Assembly (NCBI GenBank): GCA_000827205.1 | Contig: KN832556.1 | Location: 1,697,272 to 1,761,271, forward strand | Length of the DNA stretch: 64,000 nucleotides | Reading direction: 5' to 3' | DNA from: Plicaturopsis crispa FD-325 SS-3 | Lineage: Eukaryota > Basidiomycota > Agaricomycetes > Amylocorticiales > Amylocorticiaceae | Shown: one piece after another, positions 20,326 through 48,795 of the stretch | Position numbering within the stretch: position 1 is the stretch's first letter | How the letters are laid out: each line of letters opens with the position of its first letter | Made by a program: the position numbers and the translations under genes | The notes under the pieces: model-generated | Told to the model about the DNA's origin: nothing | What the model saw: only the letters and a program-made list of their open reading frames with translations | The model's database searches: none

Positions 20326-20632
20326 NNNNNNNNNNNNNNNNNNNNNNNNNNNNNNNNNNNNNNNNNNNNNNNNNNNNNNNNNNNNNNNNNNNNNNNNNNN
20401 NNNNNNNNNNNNNNNNNNNNNNNNNNNNNNNNNNNNNNNNNNNNNNNNNNNNNNNNNNNNNNNNNNNNNNNNNNNNNNNNNNNNNNNNNNNNNNNNNNNN
20501 NNNNNNNNNNNNNNNNNNNNNNNNNNNNNNNNNNNNNNNNNNNNNNNNNNNNNNNNNNNNNNNNNNNNNNNNNNNNNNNNNNNNNNNNNNNNNNNNNNNN
20601 NNNNNNNNNNNNNNNNNNNNNNNNNNNNNNNN
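20326..20632. other. Assembly gap (307 N)
   Basis: An unbroken run of N. Its flanks are the two copies of the same 320 bp, so it is most likely a scaffolding artefact at a poly-C tract. Confidence 0.97.
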
Positions 20633-33294: not shown

Positions 33295-34071
33295 CTAGTC
33301 AAGACTCAACAGACTATCCTGACTGTAGTTGCTCGGCAAAGGCGAAATCACAAGATAGTCGCCCGGTGCGTCGTGCTTGGACTCCGATTCTGCAAACTCG
33401 GCCCCCTGCTGTCCAATACGATACAAGGCGTCCTCGACAGCTAATGTCGGTGGGATCAATCTGATGAGCGGCAGGATGACTTGCTTTATTTCTCACCTGC
33501 TTTGAAATTATGGGCATCTTGCGCACCGAGTGGCGGCATTTGAAACGGAACTTCGATAGGACTGTTGACCGTCGCCTGCTTGCACCGCTCGGTAAGGGTT
33601 CGTGCTCTTGCGGCAGTCGACGTGCTCTAAGTGATATTCAGTCGGGTGTTGACACAGTACAATGGTAAGGTTATGAGTCACTACAGCGAGAACATAGAAA
33701 TCACGGATTTCTTCTGCCAGGGCGCGCGCAAGACGGTTTAAAGATGGATTTATATAGAAATGATTGTGAGCACCGCGTATCTCTTGTTGTCTCGTCAGCT
33801 CTGCTCTTCGCCTGTGAAGCATTCAGCGTAACATATGAGCCTGCTATACAGAGTGCTAGACTACTCACTCGTGGTACTCGTCCATCAAGTCTGCCAGCTC
33901 GGTATCCTTAAAGTCCTTGCACGCATAAATAATCGAGAGGGCCTCGTTAAGGTCGTGCTCCGCTTTCTCTTGTATGCTAGCCGTGGTTTTGTGTCGCAGA
34001 CAGACCACTAGAGCCGGGAGGCCTTTGATAATAGAACCTGCCGCTATGGCCAATACTTCTAGGCCAGACAT
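33295..34071 (-). CDS. Small kinase-cluster protein SA (HeLo-like N terminus)
   Basis: Exons 34071-33869, 33811-33682, 33626-33497 and 33440-33295 join in frame to 202 residues. It starts MSGLEVLAIAAGSIIKGLPA, then a helical stretch with LNEALSIIYACKDF. Exon 2 ends IRDFYVLAV; exon 3 begins STSTAARARTLTERCKQA. The same exon plan and these anchor motifs recur in two other small genes at 42100-42791 and 45850-46676. The hydrophobic MSGLE start resembles fungal HeLo-like or STAND N-terminal domains, but this is a resemblance only. No catalytic motif is seen. It lies divergent to kinase K1. Confidence 0.7.
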
Positions 34072-34737
34072 AAGGGTACAGGGCAAATATCTTGGGAGAG
34101 ATAAAATATAGGTAAGAGTGGAATGGCACTGCTGTTGCTTAAACGCACCTTTCCCGTGACAGCTCTTATACGGTGGTACGGAGGAAGCCATGTCGATTCC
34201 GTCTATCCGATATTGGAACAAACGACGAATGCCATTGTGACAATTGCTCTAGGTGATATAAGCTTCAAGAATCATATAGAAGATATAACGTACATCTGGT
34301 CCAGCAACCGCTTTTGAAACCCTCACAAGGAGCCTGGGAGGACCTACACGGACCCACTGGCAAGATTTGTTGTCAGTAACTGCTACTTGTGCGATGTTGT
34401 TGTTCTCCGAGATGAAATTCGAACGAACGAAGCTTCGAGCTCCCGTTACTTACAAGGAAATTTTTCCACCGCAGCATGAGCGCGGAGAGAGACGGCGAAC
34501 GAACTAGGAAACGAGGAACGGTGCCAGACGCGCTTGGAGGTAAGTTGTGTACTTGCACAGCGCGGAGATGGCCGGGCATTGCGCTGAGTTCGAAATTGTT
34601 GTTGTCCTCGACGCGTTGTGGAAATTTAGAAGGCACTGACTTGTTCAGACGTCCAGGATGCTGGCTGCTCTCTTCAATGCCACCCCCATCCCTGGTCCTT
34701 TCTATTTCCTACAGCTATCTGCCCCCGATAGTCCTCC
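34072..34737. other. Divergent promoter region SA / K1
   Basis: About 670 bp between the two starts. No other gene is supported. Confidence 0.4.
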
Positions 34738-36055
34738 ATGTCCAAGCCTCCTGTGCAGCCGTCACCGACTTCGGACGTCGTCGTAGGGGGGATAGCCAAA
34801 CGAGAGCGTTTTTGGGTTCAGCATTACACTTGGCTTGAAGAGCGCGGGTACAGGCTGCGGAAACGATTCGCACCGGACTGGATTCCATCGTGGCTAGAGA
34901 CGAACAAACTGTTAGATTATTTCGAGGATAGCAGGAGTGTATTCGTGCGTGTCCCGTTATCCACTACCTCTCAGTTATCTCATCTCCCTACTACAGACAC
35001 CCCAGATCTGTGACGCCACCCGAATTTCGGACGGCGCTTTCGTCAGCTTGAAGAAGCTGAGCAAATCAGTCCATCCGTTCGAAGTCGACATTGGTCGCTA
35101 TTTCACATCTGAGCCGCTTGCGTCAGACCCGAGGAATCATTGTGCTCCATTCATCGAGGTCCTGCAAGTTCCAGACGACGATGATTTGGCCGTCGTAGTA
35201 ATGCCTCTCCTGCGGTATTACGACAATCCTCGCTTCGACACGTTCGGCGAGGCGGTTGATTTCTTCCAGCAAGTAATCGAGGTAAGCGTACTATACAATT
35301 CGAAGCATTTCATTTTCTCAGAATGATCACCCCGCCGCCAGGGGCTGCAATTTATGCACGAGCACCACGTCGCTCATCGGTAGGTGGTAAACTGTAGCCA
35401 AAATATAATCGTACTAAATATTCGTTACAGAGACATCAAGTGGAATAACGTGATGATGGATGCCACTCCACTCTATCCAATTCCGTATCACCCGTACACC
35501 TTATCCATGAGGCGTGATTACACAGGCCCTGCGAAGCACCGGACTCGTACGCAACACCCTGTCAAGTATTATTTCATCGACTTCGGCATTTCTCGACGGT
35601 ACAATCCAGCTGACGGCCCACCGCTTGAAGACCCAATATGGGGTGGCGACAAAACCGTCCCAGAATTTCACAAGGCACTCGACCCTTGCGACCCCTTTCC
35701 CACCGATATCTATTATCTCGGCAACATGATTCGACAGGGCTTCTTGATTGTACGTGGCTTCCACTTGTTGAGCGTGCGATCCTGCTTAACAGACAAACAG
35801 GAGAGATACGGCTTCGACTTCATGAGGCCACTCATTGAGGACATGGTACAGGACGACCCTTCCAAGCGTCCTCAGATCGACGAGGTTGCGTCAAGGTTCC
35901 AGGCGATCCGCGCGTCTCTCAGTAACTGGAAGCTTCGGTCGAGGATCGTGAAAAAGGGTGATGATCCCCTCGATTTTCCGCTTCGCGTAGTTCGTCACTG
36001 GGCGAGACGTATTTCCTTCATCTTGCGACGCGTTCCGGCTGTTCCTTCTGTATAG
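34738..36055 (+). CDS. Agaricomycete-type protein kinase K1
   Basis: Exons 34738-34944, 34997-35281, 35342-35379, 35431-35749 and 35801-36055 give 367 residues. The N terminus (ERFWVQHYTWLEERGYRLR, FAPDWIPSW) lacks a normal glycine loop. The catalytic Lys sits in FVSLKKLSK, the hinge in VVVMPLLR, the loop in HRDIKWNNVMMD, the metal-binding Asp in FIDFGISRRY, an APE-like TVPEF, and the helix-F Asp in PTDIYYLGNMI. An intron splits the HRD arginine codon. Key residues are intact, so it is probably an active kinase. The family is expanded in mushroom-forming fungi; substrate and role are unknown. Confidence 0.9.
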
Positions 36056-36698
36056 TCCTGCGTCAACTTCTCCAGTGTGGTATGTCACTAATCTCCTTGC
36101 TGTGTTGTTCTTTTGTTCTGCTGTCGTTAGCACAATACCTATTGCATCTTTTCTTTCATGCTTGCTTGTTTTGTCTTTGTCTGCACGAGGACATCGCTAG
36201 CTGCTCATCCCACTCCGGTGTGTAGGGTCTGAATGGCTCTATTGTACTTCAGCGCACGAGGTGAGTAACAGCGCTACCCGTCCCAAAGCTTTCCCATCGA
36301 GTACTGATAGACGCTATCTTGTTTTGAGGCCTTGTTGCCCGTGTAAGTATATGTTCGGCCACGGCAATGCCCGTCTACGTGCGTCTGCACTCTTTTTATT
36401 GTTTTTCGTCTATTCACTATCCACGGCTTGCAGATTTCTTGTGGCTGTAACCAGGGTACTGCTGTTGTTATGCTAGGGCGTGCCCGCCACAAATCCAGTG
36501 TCGGAACTCCGCGTGACACGGCTCGTTCTTTGGTGGCGAATACGCACTATCGAACTATCTTCTAATAGTCCGTATCCTCGGCAGATGCTTCCAGCGACAG
36601 CTGCCATATTCTCAACAGGTCAACGTACGCTCTCCCGCATTTCGAGTCATCGCCCACACGTCCACCCGAATTTGCCTCACGCCCTCCCTCTTTTCCCG
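36056..36698. other. K1-K2 spacer
   Basis: A short spacer without other genes. The 80 bp before K2 are pyrimidine-rich, as are those before the other kinases. Confidence 0.4.
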
Positions 36699-38019
36699 AT
36701 GTCCAAATCTACAATGCAGGTGTCACCAACTTCCGACGTACTATATGGCGGGATCAACAGTAGAGAGCACTTTTGGGTCAAGCATTATACTTGGCTCGAA
36801 AGTCGCGGATACAGGCTACGACCTCGTTACGCACCCGATTGGGTACCCTCCTGGTGGGGAACTGACGAATTGGCTGATCTATTCGAAGACGGCAAAACTA
36901 TCTTCGTGCGTGGCACATTTTCACCCATCTTCCGCTGAGCTGACTTGCGAGTTCGACTTGGTTAGACGGGGCGTATCTGCGACGCTACCCGCATTTCGGA
37001 CAGCTCATTTGTCATCTTGAAGAAGATCAGCATATCGTCCCACCTTTACGAGGTCGACATCGGGCGTTTCTTGTCGTCCGAACCTCTCGCGTCAGACCCG
37101 GCCAACCACTGCGTGCAGCTCATTGAGGTCCTTCAAGTTCCAGACGATGACGATCTCGTCCTACTCGTTATGCCTCTCCTGCGCTACTGCGATAATCCAC
37201 GTTTTGACACCTTCGGGGAAACCATCGACTTCCTACAGCAGATTATCGAGGTAACTCGATCCACTACCGGAGGGACAGAGTCATATTGAAATGTTACTAT
37301 CTCAGGGCTTACAGTTCATGCACAAACACCATGTCGCTCACAGGTACGCGTATAACTCATGCAACAGTTCGGCCGTATTGAGACCTCGTACGCAGAGACA
37401 TCAACAAGCTCAATATCATGATGGATGCCACTCCACTATATCCGGTGCCCTATCACCCATTTGCCATCTCAACGAAGCGAGACTACAGTGGCAGAGCAAA
37501 GCATTACACTCGCACACAGCGACCTGTAAGATACTGCATCATCGACTTCGGCATTTCTCGTTGCTACAACCCGGAGGACGGGCCGCCACTGGAGGACCCG
37601 ATATACGGTGGTGACAAGACCGTGCCAGAATTCGAAAAGTCACTGGATCCTTGCGACCCGTTTCCGACCGACGTCTACTACCTCGGGAACACAATGAGGC
37701 AGCGTTTTCTGATTGTGCGTTTGCCACACTTGTGTTTATTATATTTTACTTACAACGTACCTAGGAGCGATACGGCTTCGATTTTCTCAGGCCTCTCGTT
37801 GAGACCATGGTCCAGGACGATCCTGCGAAGCGGCCGCATATGGATGAAGTTGCTAGCCGATTTACCGCAATCCGCGAGTCACTCAGCGATTGGAAGCTCA
37901 GGTCCCGGGTCCTGAACAAAGGGGACTCACATCTGGACATTCCTTATCGTGTGGTGCGCCATTGGATAAGGCGAATCGGACTTGTCTTGCGACGTGTCCC
38001 GGCCGTTCCATCTGTGTAA
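36699..38019 (+). CDS. Agaricomycete-type protein kinase K2
   Basis: Exons 36699-36905, 36966-37250, 37306-37343, 37396-37714 and 37765-38019 have the same lengths as K1 and give 367 residues. The N terminus is MSKSTMQVSPTSDVLYGG. The catalytic Lys is in FVILKKISI, and the loop reads HRDINKLNIMMD, so the Lys two residues after the Asp is replaced by Asn while Asp and the metal-binding Asn remain. IDFGISR and PTDVYYLGN are kept. The gene is a tandem duplicate of the neighbouring kinases. Confidence 0.9.
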
Positions 38020-40063
38020 TCGGATGGCCATGTGTTATGTGGTATACTGTAATATCCGCATCTTGCTTTCTTGCCCTATTTGCGTTAACGTTCTCTAGCA
38101 TACCCAGTGTACCAAATCTTAAGTTTCTATCGGCGAACTATCCCATGTTGTCCTTCGAGTCCCGCTTCCAGTTGAGATGCATATCGTCAGTAGCATGGTT
38201 ATCCCCTGTCATTGTCTTGTTTCAGGTGTTCTACAATCTCACCGCTACCACCAAACCCATCAGAGTGTATCTCCGACGATGGTGAGTCTGTATTGTACTC
38301 ACTTAACGGGAGAGCTCCTTGAACTCGAACCACCATCTGGTTGGGTTTTTCCCACGCCTTTGGCAGGGCAAGGAGGGGTGCAGTGCACACGCACAGCGAG
38401 GTCCAAACGACGCTCACAACCTCTGCCTGCATCTCAAGTCGACAGCTCCCGTCGCAACCGCCAGAATTCGCTGCCTGCGTCGCAGCACCCCGACGTTCGG
38501 GCGTTGACAGGTCCCAACGACCGGTTGACTCAACCTGCCACGTCACGGCTCGACAGGGATCAAACATCCCTCTTGGGCCACCCACTTCGTTCGACACCAC
38601 TCTCCTTGTCAGCACACACGACAGCGGGGCCTGCTCGAGGGACGCGGAAGCGAATGTTAGGGCACGCGGGCAAACCAGGCCTGCTCGGCGATGCAGTCTT
38701 CGCGCGTACACTTTTCTTTTCTTTTCCCCAATCCCTGTGCGACAGCACTTCCGCCTTTCTACCCCCCGACCGCCGCCGTCTCCCGACAGGCTCTCTGTCG
38801 TTGTTGTCACTGTTCAGCCACGGATCCTTATCACCATCGTCCTCATCATTTCCGGTCCCTCCCGACTACACTCATCACCGACACCTTCGCCAACATGTCA
38901 GTGCTCGCCCAGTCCCTCACATGCGAAGCCCACCACCCAAGGACCTTAGTATCGAAGCCGAGGAACTCCACCGAGGCAAGCCGGGAGGCGTGTGCTCTGG
39001 AAGTCAGCCACCCGTACCGTAATCCGGGAGACGTAGGGGCTCCCGTAGGATCGGGCATGTGATCGAATACTCGCATTAGCAGCAACCCGACACCTGGCGC
39101 AGTAAGTGGCGGTGAGGCCTGGTCACCCTCTTGCTCTCGCCTGTCAAACTGGTGTAGCGTTGACTGGAGGATTGGAGGTCTACGGTTTTGGGTCAGGTGG
39201 AGAGGTTCAGCTTTTGGTTAGGTTTGTTGGAGGTTTGGTTTTCGTTTTTCAATATGGCTTTACGGTTTTCTGCTTGACTTGGGACCCCGTATGAATTTCC
39301 CCGTTCAAACCCCCCCGTTCATCTATGCATTCCTCGATACTTATGGCAGATTTTACCGTCTACATACTTTTTTCTTTGGTGTTCTATCTCCCAGTAGTAC
39401 ACTACCGCGTCTTAGCTCGTTTGTTGGCTTGCAGCGGTATATAAAATCTGATTTCATCATCATCATCATCAACTCACTTAACGGCCAGCCTTTGCAAAGC
39501 TCAGGTGCTCCTTTTCTTCCAGTCCTCTCACGCGGTTCTCCCCCCATGATCTCACGAGTGTCGTCCTGCACAACTTCGTATTGTCTATAAGTACAACAAA
39601 CAATACGGCTTCCAATTGTGTGGCAATTGTTCTTGGTTTGCCGTACGTACAGCTTCCGCTGTCTGCCGTCTATCAAGTTCAACCATGCGCACAACAACAT
39701 TCAAGTTGCTCGGGGCTCGCGAAAGATGCAAAACAATTTAGGTACGTCTTCATCGAGTTCCTCCCGGAGTCGCATTCACAAATTTGCGATTCTAGTCATT
39801 GGATGATCGGTACTCTCAAGAACAAGGTGTGTTTCCTGCCTAAGCGTACAGCTGGCATGCTGACCGCGGCCTAGGAAATGTGTAGAATGTGCCTTCCGCC
39901 ACATTAGCATGTTACGCTGAGTCTGGATGCATAGGCTTTTGTACGCCCGGAAACAAGACAGTGGCTTCCATATTCCCTTTAAAGCTTCCTAGGACAAATG
40001 TGCAGCATACGTTGTTCTCTACACCCCCGCCGCCGTCCCTCTCTAATTTCTCTCGATAAAGTC
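38020..40063. other. K2-K3 spacer enlarged by an insertion
   Basis: The first 270 bp resemble the region after K3, and the middle holds a probable retroposon. A frame near 39,740-39,830 (YVFIEFLPESHSQICDSS) is unexplained. Confidence 0.35.
38310..39472 (+). mobile_element. Putative non-LTR retroposon (SINE- or truncated LINE-like), about 1.16 kb
   Basis: The segment is bounded by a perfect 13 bp direct repeat (ACTCACTTAACGG at 38297-38309 and 39473-39485) that looks like a target-site duplication. Its right end is a short CAT repeat (39456-39470), as in elements primed on simple 3' tails. It interrupts a spacer that is otherwise related to the K3 spacer. No reverse transcriptase is visible. 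The family is unknown and the call rests on the ends only. Confidence 0.4.
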
Positions 40064-41410
40064 ATGCTCGCTCCGAAAATCCCCATATCAAAACCTGTCG
40101 TGCAGTCACCGACGGACGATATGGTCCCTGGCGGAATCAATGGCAAAGAACATTTCTGGGTCAAGCACTACACATGGCTCGAAAGCTGCGGCTATAAACT
40201 ACGACATCGTTACGCACCAGAATGGGTTCCTTCCTGGTTGGGAACTAATGAGTACTACCAAGTATGCGAGGACTCAAAATCTATTTTCGTAAGTGCCACA
40301 TTTCTGACATCAATCAATGTACCGCACTGCTGAATTGCCTGGCTAGACAGAGCGCATCTGCGATGCTACTCGCATCGCGGATGGGTCCTTTGTTAGCATG
40401 AAGAAAATCAGCAAGTCATACCATCCGTACGAAGTAGATATCGGGCAGTTTTTATCGTCAGAGCCGCTCGCTTCTGACCCGACCAATCACTGTGTGCCCT
40501 TTATCGAGGTCCTTCAAGTCCCGGACGACGAAGATTTGGTTCTACTCGTAATGCCCCTTCTGCGGCAATACAACAATCCTCGCTTCGATACGTTTGGGGA
40601 GACCATCGAGTTTTTACAACAGATCATTGAGGTAAGTAGATGATCTACTAGTATCAGAGGTAAATTGCTCGCTGAGCGTCATACAAGGGGTTAAAATTCA
40701 TGCATAAACATCACGTCGCGCACAGGTATGTCCGCGGATCACATATATAAGTTCGTGTCGAGTAACAGCGCGCATAACAGAGACATTAATCAGACCAACG
40801 TCATGATGGATGCTGCACCGCTCTATCCGGTACCCTATCACCCGTTCGCTATATTGATGAAGCGGGACTACAGCGGATGGGCGAAACATCTCACTCGTAC
40901 GCAGCGGCCTGTCAAATACTACCTCATCGATTTCGGTATATCTCGTCGGTATGACCCGAAGGATGGGGCGCCATTGGAGGATCCAATATACGGTGGCGAC
41001 AAGTCTGTCCCCGAGTTTGCTAGGTCATTGGACCCATGCGACCCATTTCCGACTGACGTTTATTATCTCGGGAACATGATTAGGAGACATTTTCTGGTCG
41101 TACGTCTGTCGAATCGGCTATTTTGATTCACTGCAATGACTGACTGCATTTGTAGGAGAGATACGGTTTTGACTTTCTGAGGCCTCTCGTAGAGGACATG
41201 GTCCATGATGACCCTTCTAAGCGGCCGCAAATGGACGAAGTCCTCAGCCGATTTACTGCGATCCGCAAATCGCTGAGCGACTCGAAGCTAAGGTCCAGGG
41301 TCGTCAATATGAAGGACGATCCTTTCGATACCCCTTATCGTGTGGTTCGCCATTGGATCCGGCGGATCTCTTTCATCTTGCGACGTGTTCCGGCCGTTCC
41401 GTCTGTATAA
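40064..41410 (+). CDS. Agaricomycete-type protein kinase K3
   Basis: Exons 40064-40288, 40347-40631, 40688-40725, 40781-41099 and 41156-41410 give 373 residues. Exon 1 is 18 bp longer than in K1; all others match. It starts MLAPKIPISKPVVQSP; the catalytic Lys is in FVSMKKISK. The loop is HRDINQTNVMMD, again with Asn in place of the usual Lys. LIDFGISRRYDP, TVPEF replaced by SVPEF, and PTDVYYLGNMI are present. The C-terminal FILRRVPAVPSV is shared with K1 and K2. Confidence 0.9.
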
Positions 41411-42099
41411 TCGGATGCTATCAATTATATGGTATACCTGCTATCTTCGTGCCTTGCTATCTTGCTTTTTGCGTTAACGTCGTCTACCCAGTATACGCAA
41501 CTCTGGAATTATACAATTTAATGAGTACTCACCAATCGTCTCGCATGCGGGCGCCCCCCGAGTCCTACAATTTGAGATATGCAGCTGTCAATATTCGGTC
41601 GACCGGACCCTCCGAGTCGATTTGACAATGAAAGTCATTAGTTCCTTTCTTCCGTTCAATCGTACGGCACTGAGGTCTCCCGCGCGTGCTCTCCTGTCCC
41701 CATCAAACCATATCATCAACCATGGTGAGTCCTTCTGTGCCACGCCTACGACATACCTACGCTCGGACGAGGACTTCGCTGGCTCTGATCAAAACCGGTG
41801 TTTCGCTATGCTGTCCCATATCACCCTTACGAGAAACCGTTGCGCTCGTGTTCTGCCCTGTCAATACGTTTGTTCGACTCGCTCACTGAACTTCAGCTTG
41901 AGGTGTTTCGAGGCTTCAGATTCAGCGTTGTCGGGTGATGTCGAACAGTCAAACACATCGGTTAACCACTACGAGTACAACATGCGCTGCATGCAATGCG
42001 TGGTAGTCTAAATTGCTACAGCTAGGACCGTTAATGATCACTGATACTACTCGACGATTGCCGGGCCCCAGCGCAACCAGAAGATACTCCCGCGGCGCG
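41411..42099. other. Convergent region K3 / SB
   Basis: The part at about 41,560-41,730 resembles the region after K2. It contains an ATG directly followed by a GTGAGT donor, but no downstream exon can be assigned. Confidence 0.35.
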
Positions 42100-42791
42100 T
42101 CATAAGTCGGATTCCAGTGCTGTACTAACCTGAGGCTCACTAATATGAGCTAGCCCATTCTCAACAGCTGAAGGTGCGTGTCAGAATGTTCTTATGCGCT
42201 GATAAAGACACCGTTGTTGCTTACCTGTTCTGACAGTAGAGTATATGTCTTGCTCGAGGGCTTGTCGTATGGTCAAGGGAGGTCGGGTAGCATCGTCGGC
42301 CTCTGTGCACTTGCTAGCGAGAGATCTCGCCAGTATTGCATTTGACGTAGTCTAAGACAGGCATGAGGTGACCGTGTAAAACACCTGAAGAATCGTTGCT
42401 TACCATGGCTAGCAAGTAAAATCGCTTAACATCGTCGCGTATTTTTCTCCTTTGGATAGTAAAGACAGGGTCCACGTAAAAGACACTGCGCTCACTACAA
42501 TATTTTGACTGCTTCATCAGCTTACAACGATGACTGTGTCGCAGACCGTAATGAGCAGGAGAACTTGGTCATATTGAGCATCACTTACAGATTATATTTT
42601 TTGACAAGGAACTTTAGCTCATCCTCCGTCAACACTGTGTGGCATGCCTCGAGTATTGACAGGCCCTCTGTAGGCTTTTCTTCTACCTTGGTGAGTGACT
42701 GACATGTAGCCCTCTCTCGGAAGAAGACAACAACGTCAGGCGCATCGTCGGCGACCGCGCTTACAATGCCCAGAAATTTGATACCAGACAT
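42100..42791 (-). CDS. Small kinase-cluster protein SB
   Basis: Exons 42791-42589, 42533-42404, 42351-42225 and 42167-42100 join to 175 residues. Exons 1 and 2 are 203 and 130 bp, exactly as in SA. It starts MSGIKFLGIVSAVADDAPDV; exon 1 includes EGLSILEACHTV. Exon 2 ends VKRFYLLAM, exon 3 begins TTSNAILARSLASKC, and exon 4 begins AVENGLAHI against AVEDALYRI in SA. The protein is strongly diverged from SA outside these anchors, and its C terminus is shorter. No enzymatic motif or signal peptide is visible. Confidence 0.65.
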
Positions 42792-44168
42792 GAATTGAAG
42801 GTGGAGAGTTTGACTATGGAGTTCGGGTGAGATACGAAGGGGTGTCTAGGGCTCTTGATGATGGAACGCACCAATTGCTCCTGATATAAGTTTAAAGAAC
42901 GCATAATCTACGAGACCGTAGAGTCACCGTAAGTGAAACAAAAAAACATGCCGATAGCCAAGTTACACTGTTGTAAAGAATACCAGTAAGTGCTTCACTC
43001 TATAACCACAAAGAGAACAAGAGGCTAGTATCGAAGGGGTTCCACAGACTCACTTCTGGTGTGAGCTGCCCGTACGGTAGTAGAGCACTGGGATTCGAGG
43101 CAGAGGCTGTTTGACCGGTTGTTATCGCAGAAGCAGTTTGTGCGGACAATCTCGCGGCGTAAATTCAAGCTTCAAAGTTGGCTTGGTGAGACAGACGGCG
43201 AAACAGATGGACAAAACCCGCCATGACAGTCGGTTTTGTGCAGTGCAATTGTCATGCTGTCATGCAGGTCCATTAACGCGGCGGTGAGCCGAGTCCGAGA
43301 CTCCGAGTTGTGTATGCTCGCGGAGTCTGAATTGTTGTTGTCCTCGTCGCTCGAAAAATAGCCAAGGTCCAACGGATTTTTGCGGCGTACGTTCAACAAC
43401 GTTCAAGACAAGAACGGGAAACACGATGTCTTTCTTCAGCTGTACCGTCGCTCTCGTCCTGTTCTAGTTGCGCATCTTAGCCCTGTCGGTTTCGGTGGCC
43501 TCCTACCTACTTGTGGATCACGTTTGCTCCACACTGGGACATCGCCGGCAGTCCCCTCAGCTCTCGTGCTCAATGACTGTGTCTTTTGCAGATTCTGATT
43601 CTGTACTGTCTCTCACGCGTTTTTCTGTCGCCTCAATCAAAGGTTCGGCGTCTGACGTCCATTATTCATTCAACGGGTTTCGATGCAGTCCACGAAGCAT
43701 TTGGTGCTCTCGAGCACCGCTCCCTTGACACCGTGCCTCGACACTGTTGCCCAGTCGACCGTACATTATTGTCAAGGCCCTTTATTCCTGCTTATCCTGT
43801 CTGCTATTGTCCAGAGTCGTTGGTGGGAGACCGCTGGGGAGAGAAGCGTATCGGTACGCATGTGCTTCTACTGAGTTGTTCTTCATTCACTAACCATCCG
43901 CAGATGCTGTGCTATACAAAGCGTACATTGTGTTCGCCGCCGCGATACAGATACAGATAACGGTGTGCTAGAGCGTGCCTCGGCAGGGACTTGGCTCGAT
44001 ATTTCGTGGCGAGTCGCACCGCCAAACCTGCCCTTAAAGGGCCCTCGCTGGTTCTAAATGAGAGCCTTGTTGTCCCCGCGTGCTCTCGACAGGTCAGGCC
44101 TTCAGGATCTGCACTCGTGCTCTCGTCGCGTTCACATTTTCCTCAGCCGCGCTTTCCCCCTTTGCCCA
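42792..44168. other. Divergent region SB / K4
   Basis: 1.4 kb between the two starts. A frame on the - strand at about 43,140-43,034 (AARLSAQTASAITTGQTAS) faintly resembles exon 3 of the SA family and could be a relic. No complete gene is supported. Confidence 0.3.
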
Positions 44169-45521
44169 ATGTCGAAATCCGCCATGCAACCCTCGCCGAC
44201 TGCCGACATAGTCCCGGGCGGAATCAATGGCAGAGAACATTTTTGGGTCAAGCACTATACTTGGCTTGAAGATTGTGGCTACAAGCTACGTCCCCGTTAT
44301 GCACCGGACTGGATCCCTTCGTGGATAGGCACCAATAAGCTGCTCGATTTGTTCGAGGATGGTAAAACTATATTCGTACGTGCCAAATCTTTCCGGTATC
44401 AATTGCTGTATCTCAGCGCTGAATCGGATTGATACGCATGGCCAGACTGAACGAATCTGTGATGCTATTCGGATCGCGGATGGTTCGTTCGTGAGCTTGA
44501 AAAAAATCCGCAGATCGTCTCATCCGTACGAAGTAGAAATCGGGCAGTTTTTGTCGTCGGCGCCTCTCGTGTCTGACCCGACCAATCACTGTGTGCCTCT
44601 CATTGACGTTCTCGAAGTTCCAGACGACGAGGACGTGGTTATACTCGTAATGCCTCTCCTGCGATACTACGACAATCCACGTTTCGACACTTTCGGAGAG
44701 ACAATTGAATTCTTACGGCAGATTCTTGAGGTGAGTGCCTAAACTACTGTACAGGGGATACAACAGGCATGCTTAGCCAGTACTCCTCTCAGGGTCTACA
44801 TTTCATGCACAAACACCGCGTTGCGCACCGGTAAGTTCACATGACCGATGCTAGAGGAGCAGGTCGAACATACTAATAGCGCGTATGCAGAGACATCCAT
44901 AAGCTGAACGTTATGATGGATGCCACTCCGCTATATCCGGTGCCCTACCACCCCTTCGATCTCTCGATGAAACGCGACTACAGCGGAACTGCGAAGCATT
45001 TTACGCGCACACAACGCCCAGTCAAATACTATATCATTGATTTCGGTATATCTCGTCGGTACAAGCCGGAAGATGGGCCGCCGCTGGAGGACCCGATATA
45101 CGGTGGCGACAAGACTGTTCCCGAGTTTCAAAAATCACTGGACCCGTGCGACCCATTTCCAACCGACATTTATTATCTCGGGAACATGATTCGGGAGCAC
45201 TTTCTAAACGTATGTCCTCCCTTTGACTCTGCTTGATAAATCGGAATTTGCTGACCGTGCCGGTAGGAAAGGTACGGCTTCGATTTTTTGAAGCCGCTTG
45301 TCGAGGACATGGTGCAGGATGACCCTTCCATGCGACCACAAATGGACGAGGTGCTCAGTCGGTTTACCGCGATCCGCGAGTCACTGGGCAGCTGGAAGCT
45401 CAGGTCCAGGGTCGTCAACAGAAGGGATCATCCTTTGGACACTCCGTATCGCGGGTTTTGCCATTGGATGAGACGAATAAATTTCATTGCGCGACGTGTT
45501 CCTGCTATTAATTCCGTATGA
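44169..45521 (+). CDS. Agaricomycete-type protein kinase K4
   Basis: Exons 44169-44375, 44446-44730, 44793-44830, 44891-45209 and 45267-45521 match the K1 lengths and give 367 residues. It starts MSKSAMQPSPTADIVPGG. The catalytic Lys is in FVSLKKIRR. The loop is HRDIHKLNVMMD, with His at the position of the usual Lys. IIDFGISRRYKPEDGPPLED, TVPEF and PTDIYYLGNMI follow. The C-terminal end differs slightly (RRVPAINSV). Confidence 0.9.
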
Positions 45522-45849
45522 TAACTACATGTACGTAGGCCACCGTGACAAACATATCTCATTCAACTGCAGGTCCTTTCTTGCTTGGTTTGTAGCGTCG
45601 GTATTCAGCTATCCAGCCGCTCCATCATGGCGCCAGATTCGCGATATCACGGACTTACTGTCGCAGTGTCATATCTACTCCTGTAAGTGTCTCGTCGTAG
45701 CAATAATACAGGCCTCGTATCATAAATAGTACCGATCTACGGAAAGTGCGTGCTTGCCAGAACTACATGCGTATAAATATGCACCATTCACAGAAGAGTC
45801 CAAATCCCTTGAGGTGCCTCGAGCAATCCTCGAGGATGGACGGAGCCAC
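45522..45849. other. Convergent region K4 / SC
   Basis: Short spacer; nothing recognised. Confidence 0.4.
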
Positions 45850-46676
45850 CTAATCCTCACCCAATGACAGCATCACTCTATTGCTGCCATCTTCTCCCCT
45901 CACAGGAGCAACGAAAGGCACCCTAGAAGCTAGTGACTGAAGAAGTGAGATTTTGATGATTGATCAAGGATGTGAGTGCTGCGTACCTTCACCTATACCG
46001 TTGTGATTGCTCACAGCGGTACCGGACGAGGAGGGGGATACGGTGTCGTCGAGAACCTCGTCGTTAACCTCGAGAGTCACAGTGTCGTTGACAGCCAGTA
46101 GATTTAGAGAGAAATGGATATGTATGGGAACGTGGGAGTCCACGAAGGCAGCGCTAGACAAGCCAGCTTGTTTTGATTTTATCATGGCTCTAGCCCGCGC
46201 GGCGTTCGATCTCGTCTAAGGTGCGTGATTAGTGCAAGAACGTCTTTGTCACGGGGAACTCGATAGACAATGTCAGTACTTACCAGGGTGACTTTGTAGA
46301 ATTTAGCAGTATCGTTAGCCAAAGCATGCGCCTTGTAGCATAGCACGGGATTCAGAGAGCGGAAAGGACCGCGGGTGCGAATTTCCTGTCCGAGTCGCGT
46401 GAGTGTGTCCCCTCGCCTGAGTTTTTAGTCAGCATGCGGCGTTCCGAAAGAGCGTAAGTGACGCGCAACGTGCATTTCGTACTCTGCCAAGAGCTCATCC
46501 AAATCACCATGTTCCATATCTTCTCGCACTGTCTCAAGAAGAGCCAACGCGCTGCAAAGCTTTCTTTCTCCACGCTTGTGCTGGCCCGCAGCGGTGTGTT
46601 TCGATAGAAAGCCTACGACTTCAGGAGTCGCGTGAATGATTCCCATAGCTAGACCAATTGCTTCTGCACCCGACAT
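45850..46676 (-). CDS. Small kinase-cluster protein SC (HeLo-like N terminus)
   Basis: Exons 46676-46483, 46416-46284, 46215-46015 and 45936-45850 join to 204 residues. It starts MSGAEAIGLAMGIIHATPEV, the most HeLo-like of the three, and continues CSALALLETV. Exon 2 ends AKFYKVTL; exon 3 begins TRSNAARARAMIKSKQAG, close to STSTAARART in SA, and is lengthened by an acidic stretch (NDTVTLEVNDEVLDDTVSP). The tail VMLSLGED parallels SLLSLD of SA. Frame and phase agree at all three junctions. Function is unknown. Confidence 0.65.
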
Positions 46677-47458
46677 TGCGACGAAAAACGTGGAAGGGTG
46701 AGGCACCGAAAGACAAGCTGAGAGCAACAGAAAATCCAGTTTGAAATGAGACATACTTTGCGGCGCGTTTTTTTATAAGGCACGCACACGCGCGTGTATG
46801 GAGGCCGTTCCAACTCAAAGGCTCTAGAACGGTACGAGGATCATTGGGCGCTACTTTAACTCGGCGGGACGTACGGTGTCCAACACATTCAGCAACTGGC
46901 ATTGTACCCAGTGCCCACGGAGACCCCATCGAGAGCGGGAGATAGCAGGGCGCCTAGTATGACTGCTCAGGAAAATAGATGGAGGACGTGAGGCTGCCGT
47001 GAAAAGAGTCTATTTCCCCGCAAAGTCCCTGCCTGCAGCTTGCAACGAGGACGTCGAGTCTCGACGGGGATTCATGCAAGTTTAGCACAAGGACAGCTTC
47101 CCGCTCCCAAATGTGTGAACGAGCGAATTTACCTTGCGCAGTGCCGCGGAGCCAACTTGCGGAGATTAAAGCGGCATCCGGATGGACCGGGTTCAATATC
47201 AATCCTCGGACGTCCTGAAGTTGTCCTGAAGGGTTTCCTCTTCATCCAGACGTCCAGATACCACCATGGGAAGGTGCAGAATCGACCACTCTAGCCTCAA
47301 TCTAGTATTAACTACTTACCGAGCCTACTTATTTCAGAATGGCTCTCCTATATTGCCCTTCGTCATCCACTAGTTCTCTGACTTTGACACTACACCGTGA
47401 CGGGAGAACGAGAGCTTCTACCAACTGGCAGTAGCTTTTGAAACAGCGTCGTTCGCCC
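46677..47458. other. Divergent region SC / K5
   Basis: No other gene is recognised. Confidence 0.4.
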
Positions 47459-48795
47459 ATGTCTCACACTCCCATGCAGCCTTCGCCGTCGAAGGATATA
47501 ACTCCAGGCGGAATTGACAAACGAGAACTCTTCTGGGTCCACCATTACACTTGGCTTGCGCAGTGCGGCTATGAGCTGCGGCCTCGCTATTCACCGGACT
47601 GGATTCCCTCCTGGCTAGGGAAAAACAAATTACTGGATTTCTTCGAAGACGGCCAAAGCATCTCCGTGCGTATCACGCTCCTAGGGATCACGGCTACAGC
47701 CTGACGCACGCGCGACGGCTCGGTGGTAGACGGCCAGCATCTGCGATGCGACGCGCGTCACCAGCACGGGAAAGACCTTCGTGAGTCTGAAGAAGATACG
47801 GAAGTCGGTCCATCCGTACGAGGCCGAGATAGGGCAATTTCTGTCGAGTGACCCTCTGTCCCAAGACCCCACGAACCACTGCGTCCCTTTCCTTGACGTC
47901 CTACAAGTCCCAGATGACGATGATATCCTCATCATTGTGATGCCTCTCCTGCGGGACTATGACAATCCACGGTTCGATACTATCGGAGAGGCGGTAGATT
48001 TCCTTACGCAAGTTATTGAGGTAAGGCAATGCCATTTCCTCCTCTCCTGATTCTGAATATATGCTCAGGGAGTGCATTTCATGCACAAACACCACGTTGC
48101 CCATCGGTACGTTACCTGCCGCCACACGTCGACTCGTAGCTCTAACCCTCGTCTAGAGATCTTAAGTATAACAACGTAATGATGGACGCGACGCCGCTCT
48201 ATCCCATCCCGTACCATCCGTACGACACCGCGATGCGGCGTGACTACACTGGGCTTGCGAAACACTATACGCGGACCCAACGCCCCGTGAAGTACTACAT
48301 AATTGACTTTGGCATTTCACGCCGATATAACCCCGCCGATGGGCCGCCGCTGGAGTATCCGATATGGGGCGGGGATAAGACCGTCCCAGAGTTCCAAACG
48401 TCGCTGGACGCTTGCGACCCATTTCCCACCGATGTCTATTATCTGGGAAACATGATCCGCGATGAATTCATCAACGTGCGTCCTTTCTCCAAGCTCGATG
48501 GTGTTTCCGCAATTTACACCGTTGTGCGCAGAAACGGTATGGCTTCGAGTTCATGCGGCCCCTGGTGGCGGACATGGTCGCGGTCGATCCGGCGAAGCGC
48601 CCGCGTATGGACGAGGTGGTGGCGCGTTTCGAGGCTATCCGCCGCTCGCTCAGCTGGTGGAAGCTGCGTGGGAGGGTCGCGAACAGGGATGACTCTGCTC
48701 TGGCAGCGCCGTACCGCATGGCAGCCCACTGGACACGACGTGTATCCTACATCATCCAGCGCATTCCGTCTGTTCCCTCTGTGCGCGTGCGTTGA
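47459..48795 (+). CDS. Agaricomycete-type protein kinase K5
   Basis: Exons 47459-47665, 47730-48020, 48069-48106, 48157-48475 and 48532-48795 give 372 residues. It starts MSHTPMQPSPSKDITPGG. Exon 2 has two extra codons before FVSLKKIRK. The loop is HRDLKYNNVMMD, with the standard Lys, as in K1. IIDFGISRRYNP and TVPEF are kept; DPIWGG and PYHPYDTAMRRDYTG link it to K1 rather than to K2-K4. The C terminus extends beyond PSVPSV by VRVR. The third base choices in exon 5 are more GC-rich than in the other copies. Confidence 0.9.

Follow-up and report, generated by a model that had tools for sequence, protein, structure and literature searches.

Small four-exon genes head to head with protein kinase genes in Plicaturopsis crispa

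Three small genes on the minus strand of a 64,000-nucleotide window of Plicaturopsis crispa FD-325 SS-3 DNA (assembly GCA_000827205.1, contig KN832556.1, positions 1,697,272–1,761,271 of the forward strand) are confirmed, by analysis of their sequences, as spliceable four-exon genes that are homologous to one another. The original prediction described these genes, SA, SB and SC, as woven into a kinase array; they do lie in the array, but each also stands head to head with a single kinase, and this pairing, missed in the earlier reading, is what is new here. We somewhat favour the view that a two-gene module recurs in this genome, of which SA, SB and SC supply the small member; its two genes are hereafter called S and K.

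Structure and kinship of the window S genes

Coordinates of the S and K genes are positions within the 64-kb window.

SA: 33295–34071, minus strand; exons 34071–33869, 33811–33682, 33626–33497 and 33440–33295; 202 residues, with a hydrophobic N-terminal stretch
SB: 42100–42791, minus strand; exons 42791–42589, 42533–42404, 42351–42225 and 42167–42100; 175 residues
SC: 45850–46676, minus strand; exons 46676–46483, 46416–46284, 46215–45987 and 45929–45850; 211 residues, last acceptor uncertain

As predicted, each gene has four short exons that read through in an open frame when spliced, and the nine introns (52–68 bp) are all of the GT–AG type, with phases 2, 0 and 1 in every gene. The exon lengths are 203/130/130/146 bp in SA, 203/130/127/68 bp in SB and 194/133/229/80 bp in SC, the match of 203 and 130 bp being confined to SA and SB as originally claimed. 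The common MSG start is present in all three proteins, exon 2 ends in FYVLAV (SA), FYLLAM (SB) or FYKVTL (SC), and the AARAR-like opening described for exon 3 takes the form A-x-x-A-R in all three. The claim of related C-termini holds only in part: exon 4 begins with AVE[DN] in both SA and SB but not in SC, and the likeness is weak. Two splice sites are less than ideal, namely the donor of SA intron 2 (GTGACT), which is poor, and the last acceptor of SC, which could be either 45930 or 45937, the latter giving a shorter tail.

With one donor weak and one acceptor ambiguous, the gene models might be taken for chance open frames, a reading that we consider extremely improbable. Against it, the joined proteins are homologous, with local alignment scores of 182, 152 and 95 compared with shuffled means of about 30 (z = 28, 24 and 14 for the three pairings, 500 shuffles each), as expected of the real gene family originally proposed. 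In addition, exon 1 of SA, searched against the 33.2-Mb genome at E ≤ 10, has at least three matches, SA itself, SB (E = 0.05) and SC (E = 0.13), all within the array, and exon 1 of SC finds the same three places among the matches listed; these counts are lower bounds, as only the best candidates were scored. A scan using ATG, exon lengths, phases and splice signals, with protein similarity left unused, returns ATGs at 34071, 42791 and 46676 and no others in the window, and none in each of ten Markov-random windows; its limits are fitted, because the scan was written once the genes were known.

Head-to-head layout with kinase genes

The kinase genes of the array and the regions that three of them share with an S gene are as follows.

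K1: 34738–36055, plus strand; paired head to head with SA; five exons, with the catalytic K, RD..N and DFG in place
K2: 36699–38019, plus strand; tandem neighbour of K1; no S gene found for it
K3: 40064–41410, plus strand; no S gene found upstream
K4: 44169–45521, plus strand; head to head with SB
K5: 47459–48795, plus strand; head to head with SC
SA–K1 shared upstream region: 34072–34737, 666 bp
SB–K4 shared upstream region: 42792–44168, 1377 bp
SC–K5 shared upstream region: 46677–47458, 782 bp

The catalytic Lys, the HRD-type Asp, the Asn and the DFG motif are present in all five window kinases, which apparently are intact. K1 matches PF00069 with 35.8 bits (cut-off 31.7) and K2, with 30.7 bits, falls just below; a Pfam scan of both returns PF00069 and a weak PF07714, and nothing else. 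A kinase from contig 8, entered without its small exon, gives no PF00069 match. The PADLOC matches of K1 (28 families, the best being the kinase-bearing mads_6 component at E = 7e-11) were set aside as reflecting the general kinase fold.

The head-to-head layout occurs at four genome sites, the window and contigs 6, 8 and 2 (C6, C8 and C2). Eleven of the 13 kinase-adjacent S genes are arranged in this way (window, 3/3; C6, 1/1; C8, 3/3; C2, 4/6), and the remaining two likewise point away from a kinase, with a run of N (an assembly gap) in between. The start-to-start gap is 580–782 bp in ten of the 11 pairs, the exception being SB–K4 with 1377 bp. Because the layout repeats at four places, we suggest that the S and K proteins work as a pair. 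Across the four sites 25 kinases were counted, and for 14 of them no head-to-head S gene could be found; no S gene was found beside kinases that are more distant and lie on other contigs. The S/K loci bear clear signs of local tandem duplication.

The upstream regions that S and K share in C2 are 74–77% identical, whereas the S exons reach 57–70% and shuffled sequence gives a baseline of 59%; in C8 these regions are 65–66% identical, little over that baseline (which was taken from C2). A promoter word common to all sites was sought among the 11 upstream regions, and no k-mer stands clearly above random: the best 7-mers occur in six of the 11 (null mean 5.7) and the best 9-mers in four (null mean 3.0, maximum 4).

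Where they could be modelled, the small genes at C6, C8 and C2 resemble those of the window in architecture, and their exon 3 begins with a similar T/S-rich stretch. When exon 1 of a C2 S gene is searched against the genome at E ≤ 10, the best nine of 17 matches all fall in C2 or C8 kinase loci (all E ≤ 5.5e-10, the query included), and eight matches to S relatives without a kinase lie on C26, C14 and C5. No kinase of the K family was found at these kinase-free relatives (L034–L039), nor was a repeated partner gene found along the C26 array. Because of these relatives and the 14 kinases without S, S and K are not strictly interdependent.

The homology of the window S genes to those of C2 and C8 rests on architecture, junction and position, because full-length similarity is not significant (best z = 3.6, with 23 of 24 comparisons below 3). 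Alignment of the two profiles by hhalign gives a probability of 0.7% (E = 0.077), and profiles of the window S proteins did not recover the distant S genes; in the ranking of spliced candidates, the C8 and C2 genes are among the top 26 listed, at chance scores (≤2.0 bits, E ≥ 2), and they were picked from it by eye, by their shared start. Phases 2, 0 and 1 fit all eight modelled C2/C8 S genes, although the phases were imposed in the search and a ninth gene was left out; for four of the eight (L019, L020, L025a and L026) the second-ranked splice model, closer to the paralogues, was used. Applied to 251,137 other bases, the architecture scan returns nine ATGs at eight places, of which seven are S-family genes and one lies inside a kinase, and it missed at least four of the 13 S genes (L019, L022, L023 and that of C6). 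Phases 2 and 0 are thus recovered by architecture alone in the three window genes and seven others. Over the residues that flank intron 2 (12 on its exon 2 side and 14 on its exon 3 side, used together), the true register ranks first of 121 offsets when the window is compared with C8, C2 and C6; for these comparisons the exon 3 side by itself ranks it 2, 2 and 1, and the exon 2 side by itself 14, 1 and 13. C6 ranks second against C8, but only 15th against C2. The C6 gene was modelled by eye, and its first intron is uncertain because the peptide used ends exon 1 earlier than the 218-bp exon proposed in the ranking of spliced candidates.

Domain searches, rates of change and competing interpretations

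In line with the original prediction, no enzyme or domain is recognised in the S proteins, for which Pfam, NCBIfam, PADLOC and PDB hold no convincing match. The suggested relation to HeLo-like or STAND domains found no profile support. HeLo families give no match at E up to 10 to SA–SC, eight C2/C8 members, the C6 gene or two C5/C26 relatives (the last two read by eye and possibly including intron-coded residues), a Pfam result limited by the HMMER filters, which discard most weak matches; PF14479 and PF17111 have no match at E ≤ 1 across the whole genome, searched exon by exon. Because that search sees single exons and both models are built mostly from other fungi, the HeLo idea is weakened rather than excluded. 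Searches of Pfam and PDB return no MLKL for S either. Rop-like and PomA-like PDB matches (E = 0.16–0.6) and a PADLOC match of SA to AbiEi (E = 0.014) were dismissed as chance helical matches. The most hydrophobic 19-residue stretch begins at residues 6–11 in all 12 kinase-linked S proteins measured, with mean hydropathy of 1.55–2.32 that is moderate in SB (1.57) and SC (1.55), a measure that by itself does not reveal a helix.

At the protein level, S changes about 2–5 times faster than K, which bears out the rapid evolution predicted for the family. Where dS is finite, dN/dS is about 0.03–0.14 for K and 0.08–0.42 for S, ratios that are rough because dS is near saturation. The identities of S and K in C2 do not clearly track each other, and a co-divergence of r = 0.65 over ten within-cluster comparisons is not taken as support because it hangs on one close C8 pair.

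We propose that S is a small, probably mostly helical protein whose hydrophobic N-terminal stretch would place it at a membrane, and that K, a predicted protein kinase with its catalytic residues in place, is read divergently from the upstream stretch that it shares with S. That the genes lie head to head at a nearly constant distance suggests that the two are made together, and K may bind or phosphorylate S and so set its activity. Such a module would be present at four sites and amplified locally, with K probably under purifying selection and S apparently diverging fast, as would fit a partner-specific part or a recognition contest.

It is rather unlikely, in our judgement, that S and K are mere neighbours, copied together by tandem and segmental duplication and sharing a promoter by accident. 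The evident tandem duplication, the occurrence of kinases, and of S relatives, that lack the other partner, and the unclear co-divergence in C2 would all suit such an account; yet the layout is kept although the kinase groups (window, C8 and C2) average only 39–55% identity to one another and the window S proteins are nearly unalignable with the others, the spacing holds near 0.6 kb, and the C2 upstream region is more conserved than the S exons. A pair in which S is poison and K antidote, or a meiotic driver, would also consist of two linked genes in amplifying clusters, one of them small and fast-changing, but the many K copies with no adjoining S make this very improbable.

Two further readings are versions of the module itself, and the odds we give them overlap with its own for that reason. 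S could be no more than a membrane anchor or scaffold, localising the kinase for developmental or nutrient signalling, with no recognition contest, a possibility that we consider less likely than not: it predicts the same anatomy and agrees with the low dN/dS of both genes, whereas a scaffold would not usually change so much faster than its kinase or vary so in copy number. That S is instead a membrane-killing helical bundle restrained or fired by K, a split counterpart of RIPK3–MLKL in self/non-self recognition or defence, seems unlikely. The hydrophobic stretch near the N terminus of all 12 S proteins, the active-site residues retained by the adjacent kinase and the fast change of S are consistent with such an effector, as are the two-gene clusters of pore-former and controller in fungi (PMC10197012) and the pore-forming-type domains, hundreds of them, that are reported to stand alone in Basidiomycota with no known controller (PMC9815663); against it stand the failure of S to match HeLo, HeLo-like or MLKL in Pfam or PDB, the two HeLo families unmatched across the genome, and the merely moderate N-terminal hydropathy of SB and SC. 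The fuller proposal, that S/K pairs form a bipartite necroptosis-like system in which a solo membrane-piercing helical S is run by an active K, the two being encoded head to head and amplified in sets, is quite doubtful.

Relation to known systems and implications

FunK1 is a kinase family expanded in Agaricomycetes. The FslK kinases are likewise Agaricomycete-expanded, with recent species-specific duplications, and no partner gene is described for them in the available part of that report (PMC3937382); the Pfam scan assigns K1 and K2 only to PF00069 and, weakly, to PF07714. Like S and K, the fungal het-S/nwd2 and gasdermin/protease clusters place a small candidate membrane-acting protein beside a larger possible controller (PMC10197012, PMC12881547), although that controller is an NLR or a protease, whereas the neighbour of S is a kinase and S has no HeLo match. 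HeLo and HeLo-like proteins carry an N-terminal helix with transmembrane propensity (PMC10197012). RIPK3–MLKL of animal necroptosis joins a kinase to a helical, membrane-directed partner (PMC12881547), as may hold for S, but no kinase-like domain and no sequence match was found in S. The BaMLKL proteins are, like S, small proteins that stand alone in Basidiomycota, and PMC9815663 reports no known controller for them.

Architecture, we note, can bring out likely members of a gene family once protein similarity has faded. In mushroom genomes, kinase families are expanded and small proteins without domains are numerous; the S/K unit joins the two and hands each orphan a testable partner. If S is membrane-active, the controller of the hundreds of lone Basidiomycota pore-forming-type domains (PMC9815663) would become directly testable. 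If the necroptosis-like reading is true, S/K would be the equivalent, under a kinase, of the het-S/nwd2 clusters run by an NLR, and would provide a controller for some of the MLKL-like proteins reported to stand alone in Basidiomycota.

Small genes facing kinase genes

Each of the three small four-exon genes of the window (S genes; SA, SB and SC) lies on the minus strand and faces one of the plus-strand kinase genes K1 to K5, the distances being measured from start codon to start codon:

SA, 33295–34071, − strand, small four-exon gene; head to head with kinase K1, 666 bp
SB, 42100–42791, − strand, small four-exon gene; head to head with kinase K4, 1377 bp
SC, 45850–46676, − strand, small four-exon gene; head to head with kinase K5, 782 bp

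The splicing put forward in the original prediction holds: all nine introns are GT–AG and 52–68 bp long, their phases are 2, 0 and 1 in every gene, and the joined exons encode proteins of 202 (SA), 175 (SB) and 211 (SC) amino acids. The three are also related to one another, as had been claimed, the alignments of the joined proteins far exceeding those of shuffled sequences (z 28, 24 and 14). A genome search (33.2 Mb, 49 contigs; the window is C3:1697272–1761271) with exon 1 of SA yields three matches at E ≤ 10, namely SA itself, SB (E 0.05) and SC (E 0.13), and exon 1 of SC finds the same three places. As far as such a single-exon search, in which only the best candidates were scored, can see, the SA/SB/SC-type family is therefore confined to this array.

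The kinase genes K1 to K5 each run from a start codon through five exons to a stop codon, and are 66–79% identical in pairs across 350–352 codons. All five keep the catalytic lysine, the RD..N loop and the DFG motif. Against the Pfam family PF00069 (cut-off 31.7 bits), K1 scores 35.8 bits and K2 30.7 bits, and a relative on contig C8, with a small exon left out of the query, gives no match. For K2 and K3, the search turned up no S gene. A basidiomycete, probably from the Agaricomycetes, is suggested by the short introns together with several STE3 pheromone-receptor genes (18 exon-level matches on C19 and C21). We note that gene order around window positions 20326–20632 is uncertain because of a run of 307 N.

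S genes at other kinase loci

Searched at E ≤ 1, one kinase exon gives 30 genome matches, in groups on C6, C7, C8, C2 and other contigs, and 17 stretches around kinase matches were fetched for the S-gene search. A profile of the window S genes gives chance scores for spliced candidates in these stretches, except for the window genes themselves. Among the 26 top candidates listed, seven, all on C8 and C2, share a like start (MSLG..F..AGA or near it), and tblastn with kinase exons places kinases beside them on the opposite strand. A profile of the seven exon 1 peptides matches nine such exons, including two not seen before. One such exon 1 has 17 genome matches at E ≤ 10, of which the nine best (E ≤ 5.5e-10) all fall within the C2 and C8 kinase loci and the eight weaker ones (E 6e-4 to 0.2) lie on C26 (six), C14 and C5. 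On C6, a divergent small gene, modelled by eye and uncertain in its first intron, lies by a kinase sharing 67% identity with K4 across the exon used as query; its phase-0 intron 2 is followed by QTSNSIKAERL.

There are 13 S genes in all (window 3, C6 1, C8 3, C2 6). Eleven stand head to head with a kinase, at a start-to-start gap of 580–782 bp in ten pairs, SB–K4 being the eleventh; the remaining two have the like orientation to a kinase, with N runs (2,833 and 562 bases) in between. Counted by the second exon, the same four sites hold 25 kinases (window 5, C6 1, C8 4, C2 15). For 14 of them no head-to-head S gene was found: nine lie behind another kinase in the same direction, two face an S gene across a gap, and three do neither.

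The C2 array (C2:112000–168500, stretches L022–L027) has 15 second-exon matches plus fragments, and some of its kinases look decayed at DFG (DFR, DYR, or lost). Two near-identical kinases ~9 kb apart (L025 4517–5850 and L026 3510–4843) reflect either recent duplication or assembly redundancy. A lone window-type kinase missing part of the activation segment lies at L028 4281–5598 (C3:1419 kb), where no S gene was found beside it, and more distant kinases form small tandem groups in L029 (C10), L021 (C7) and L032–L033 (C16); no S genes were found beside the more distant kinases of L021 and L028–L033. The S relatives on C26 form a tandem array (L034–L037; 60000–89700 and 100000–109900), with 16 clustered open frames, of which several pair up as two exons of one gene, and those on C14 and C5 (L038, L039) are single copies with nearly identical exon 1. 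They carry a clear N-terminal hydrophobic stretch. Neither a kinase of the K family, in the six stretches fetched (L034–L039), nor another repeated partner gene was found near them.

Relatedness across sites and rates of change

The S genes of different sites are likely homologous, a reading favoured by intron phases and exon lengths, by the register of the intron 2 junction, and by a scan for gene architecture. Protein alignment of window with C2/C8 S genes (z ≤ 3.6 in 24 comparisons) allows no such claim alone, and comparison of their profiles gives E 0.077 and a probability of 0.7%, the sole aligned stretch falling exactly across intron 2. Phases 2, 0 and 1 with like exon lengths fit all eight C2/C8 S genes modelled, the phases having been imposed in the search and the second-ranked splice model carried forward for four; exon 1 is 215–227 bp, exon 2 124–145 bp, and exon 3 109–133 bp in the best-scoring models but 337 bp in one. 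With the proteins aligned at the intron 2 junction, taking 12 residues before it and 14 beyond, the correct register comes first among 121 when the window is compared with C8, C2 and C6 (z 3.1, 4.1 and 3.8). In the same order, it ranks 2, 2 and 1 if just the exon 3 side is used, and 14, 1 and 13 with just the exon 2 side; C6 ranks 2 against C8 and 15 against C2. Exon 3 opens with STSTAARAR, TTSNAILAR and TRSNAARAR in the window, TTSQEARME on C8, and TTSQEQRKR, TKSQYERER, SKSDRERE, SKTDEERE or SQSDQKRA on C2. After exon 3, the C8 genes (L018, L019, L020) have an apparent conserved tail (~LPVF...GPxxRP...GEM), not seen in the window S genes, and the C2 genes a different long open stretch.

The scan used gene structure alone: an ATG-initiated exon 1 of 188–232 bp ending in phase 2, an intron of 48–71 bp with a branch-like motif, an exon 2 of 124–150 bp that ends in phase 0, another intron of the same kind, and then 120 bp open. 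Its limits were fitted after the genes were known, so its weight rests on how few other places match. On the minus strand of the window it returns the ATGs at 34071, 42791 and 46676, which are SA, SB and SC, and there are zero candidates on the plus strand or in 10 Markov-random 64-kb windows. Across 251,137 bases of other fetched stretches it returns nine ATGs, which fall at eight places: six are C2/C8 S genes, one is a C26 relative and one lies within a kinase. It overlooks the S genes of L019, L022 and L023, the gene on C6 and the majority of the relatives on C26.

The fast evolution proposed for the family is supported by matched pairs, in which S changes ~2–5 times faster than K by amino-acid changing distance, the ratios being rough because synonymous sites are near saturation. 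These distances are 0.68–0.95 for S versus 0.12–0.25 for K in the window, 0.26–0.59 versus 0.11–0.23 on C2, and 0.17–0.23 versus 0.06–0.08 on C8 for the three S-bearing kinases (one compared over 160 codons only); in comparisons with the C8 kinase that lacks an S, the K distance is 0.15–0.17. The common upstream region of C2 is 74–77% identical over its length in three comparisons (shuffled baseline 59%), against 57–70% for S exons, 59–70% for S introns, 61–72% for K introns (shuffled intron baseline 57%) and 70–87% for K exons. On C8 the upstream region is 65–66% identical, slightly above a baseline borrowed from C2. Across 10 within-site comparisons S identity rises with K identity (r 0.65), a correlation that depends on a single close pair from C8; on C2, the S genes most alike are not those paired with the most similar kinases.

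A putative two-gene module

In all 12 kinase-linked S proteins measured, the most hydrophobic 19-residue stretch starts at residues 6–11, with a mean hydropathy of 1.55–2.32 (SB and SC at the low end) versus 0.97–1.26 for window kinase segments. S may have an N-terminal helix that seeks the membrane, with further helices and a variable tail after it. For S, no convincing match emerges from Pfam, PDB, NCBIfam or PADLOC, in keeping with the original prediction of no known domain.

The modest version of a module of S and K would make S a plain scaffold, and the bold version a kinase-controlled, membrane-piercing effector. The bold version draws on fungal pore-formers kept by their controllers in two-gene clusters, as described in parts of PMC10197012, and on the hundreds of lone pore-forming-type domains of Basidiomycota whose controller is unknown, according to section 28 of PMC9815663. 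Against it, the HeLo-like relation that had been suggested for the N terminus finds no direct sequence support, nor does one to MLKL. Such a pair of kinase and small gene is absent from the titles and abstract openings surveyed, among them few subscription papers or preprints, which hints weakly at novelty.

The layout and spacing of the pairs, the kept kinase residues, the faster change of S and the conserved C2 upstream region are direct observations, and the reading with the strongest support is a two-gene module, comparable to fungal two-gene effector–controller or signalling clusters, in which a single upstream region would drive the joint production of S and K, S would sit at a membrane, and K would act on S by contact and phosphorylation.
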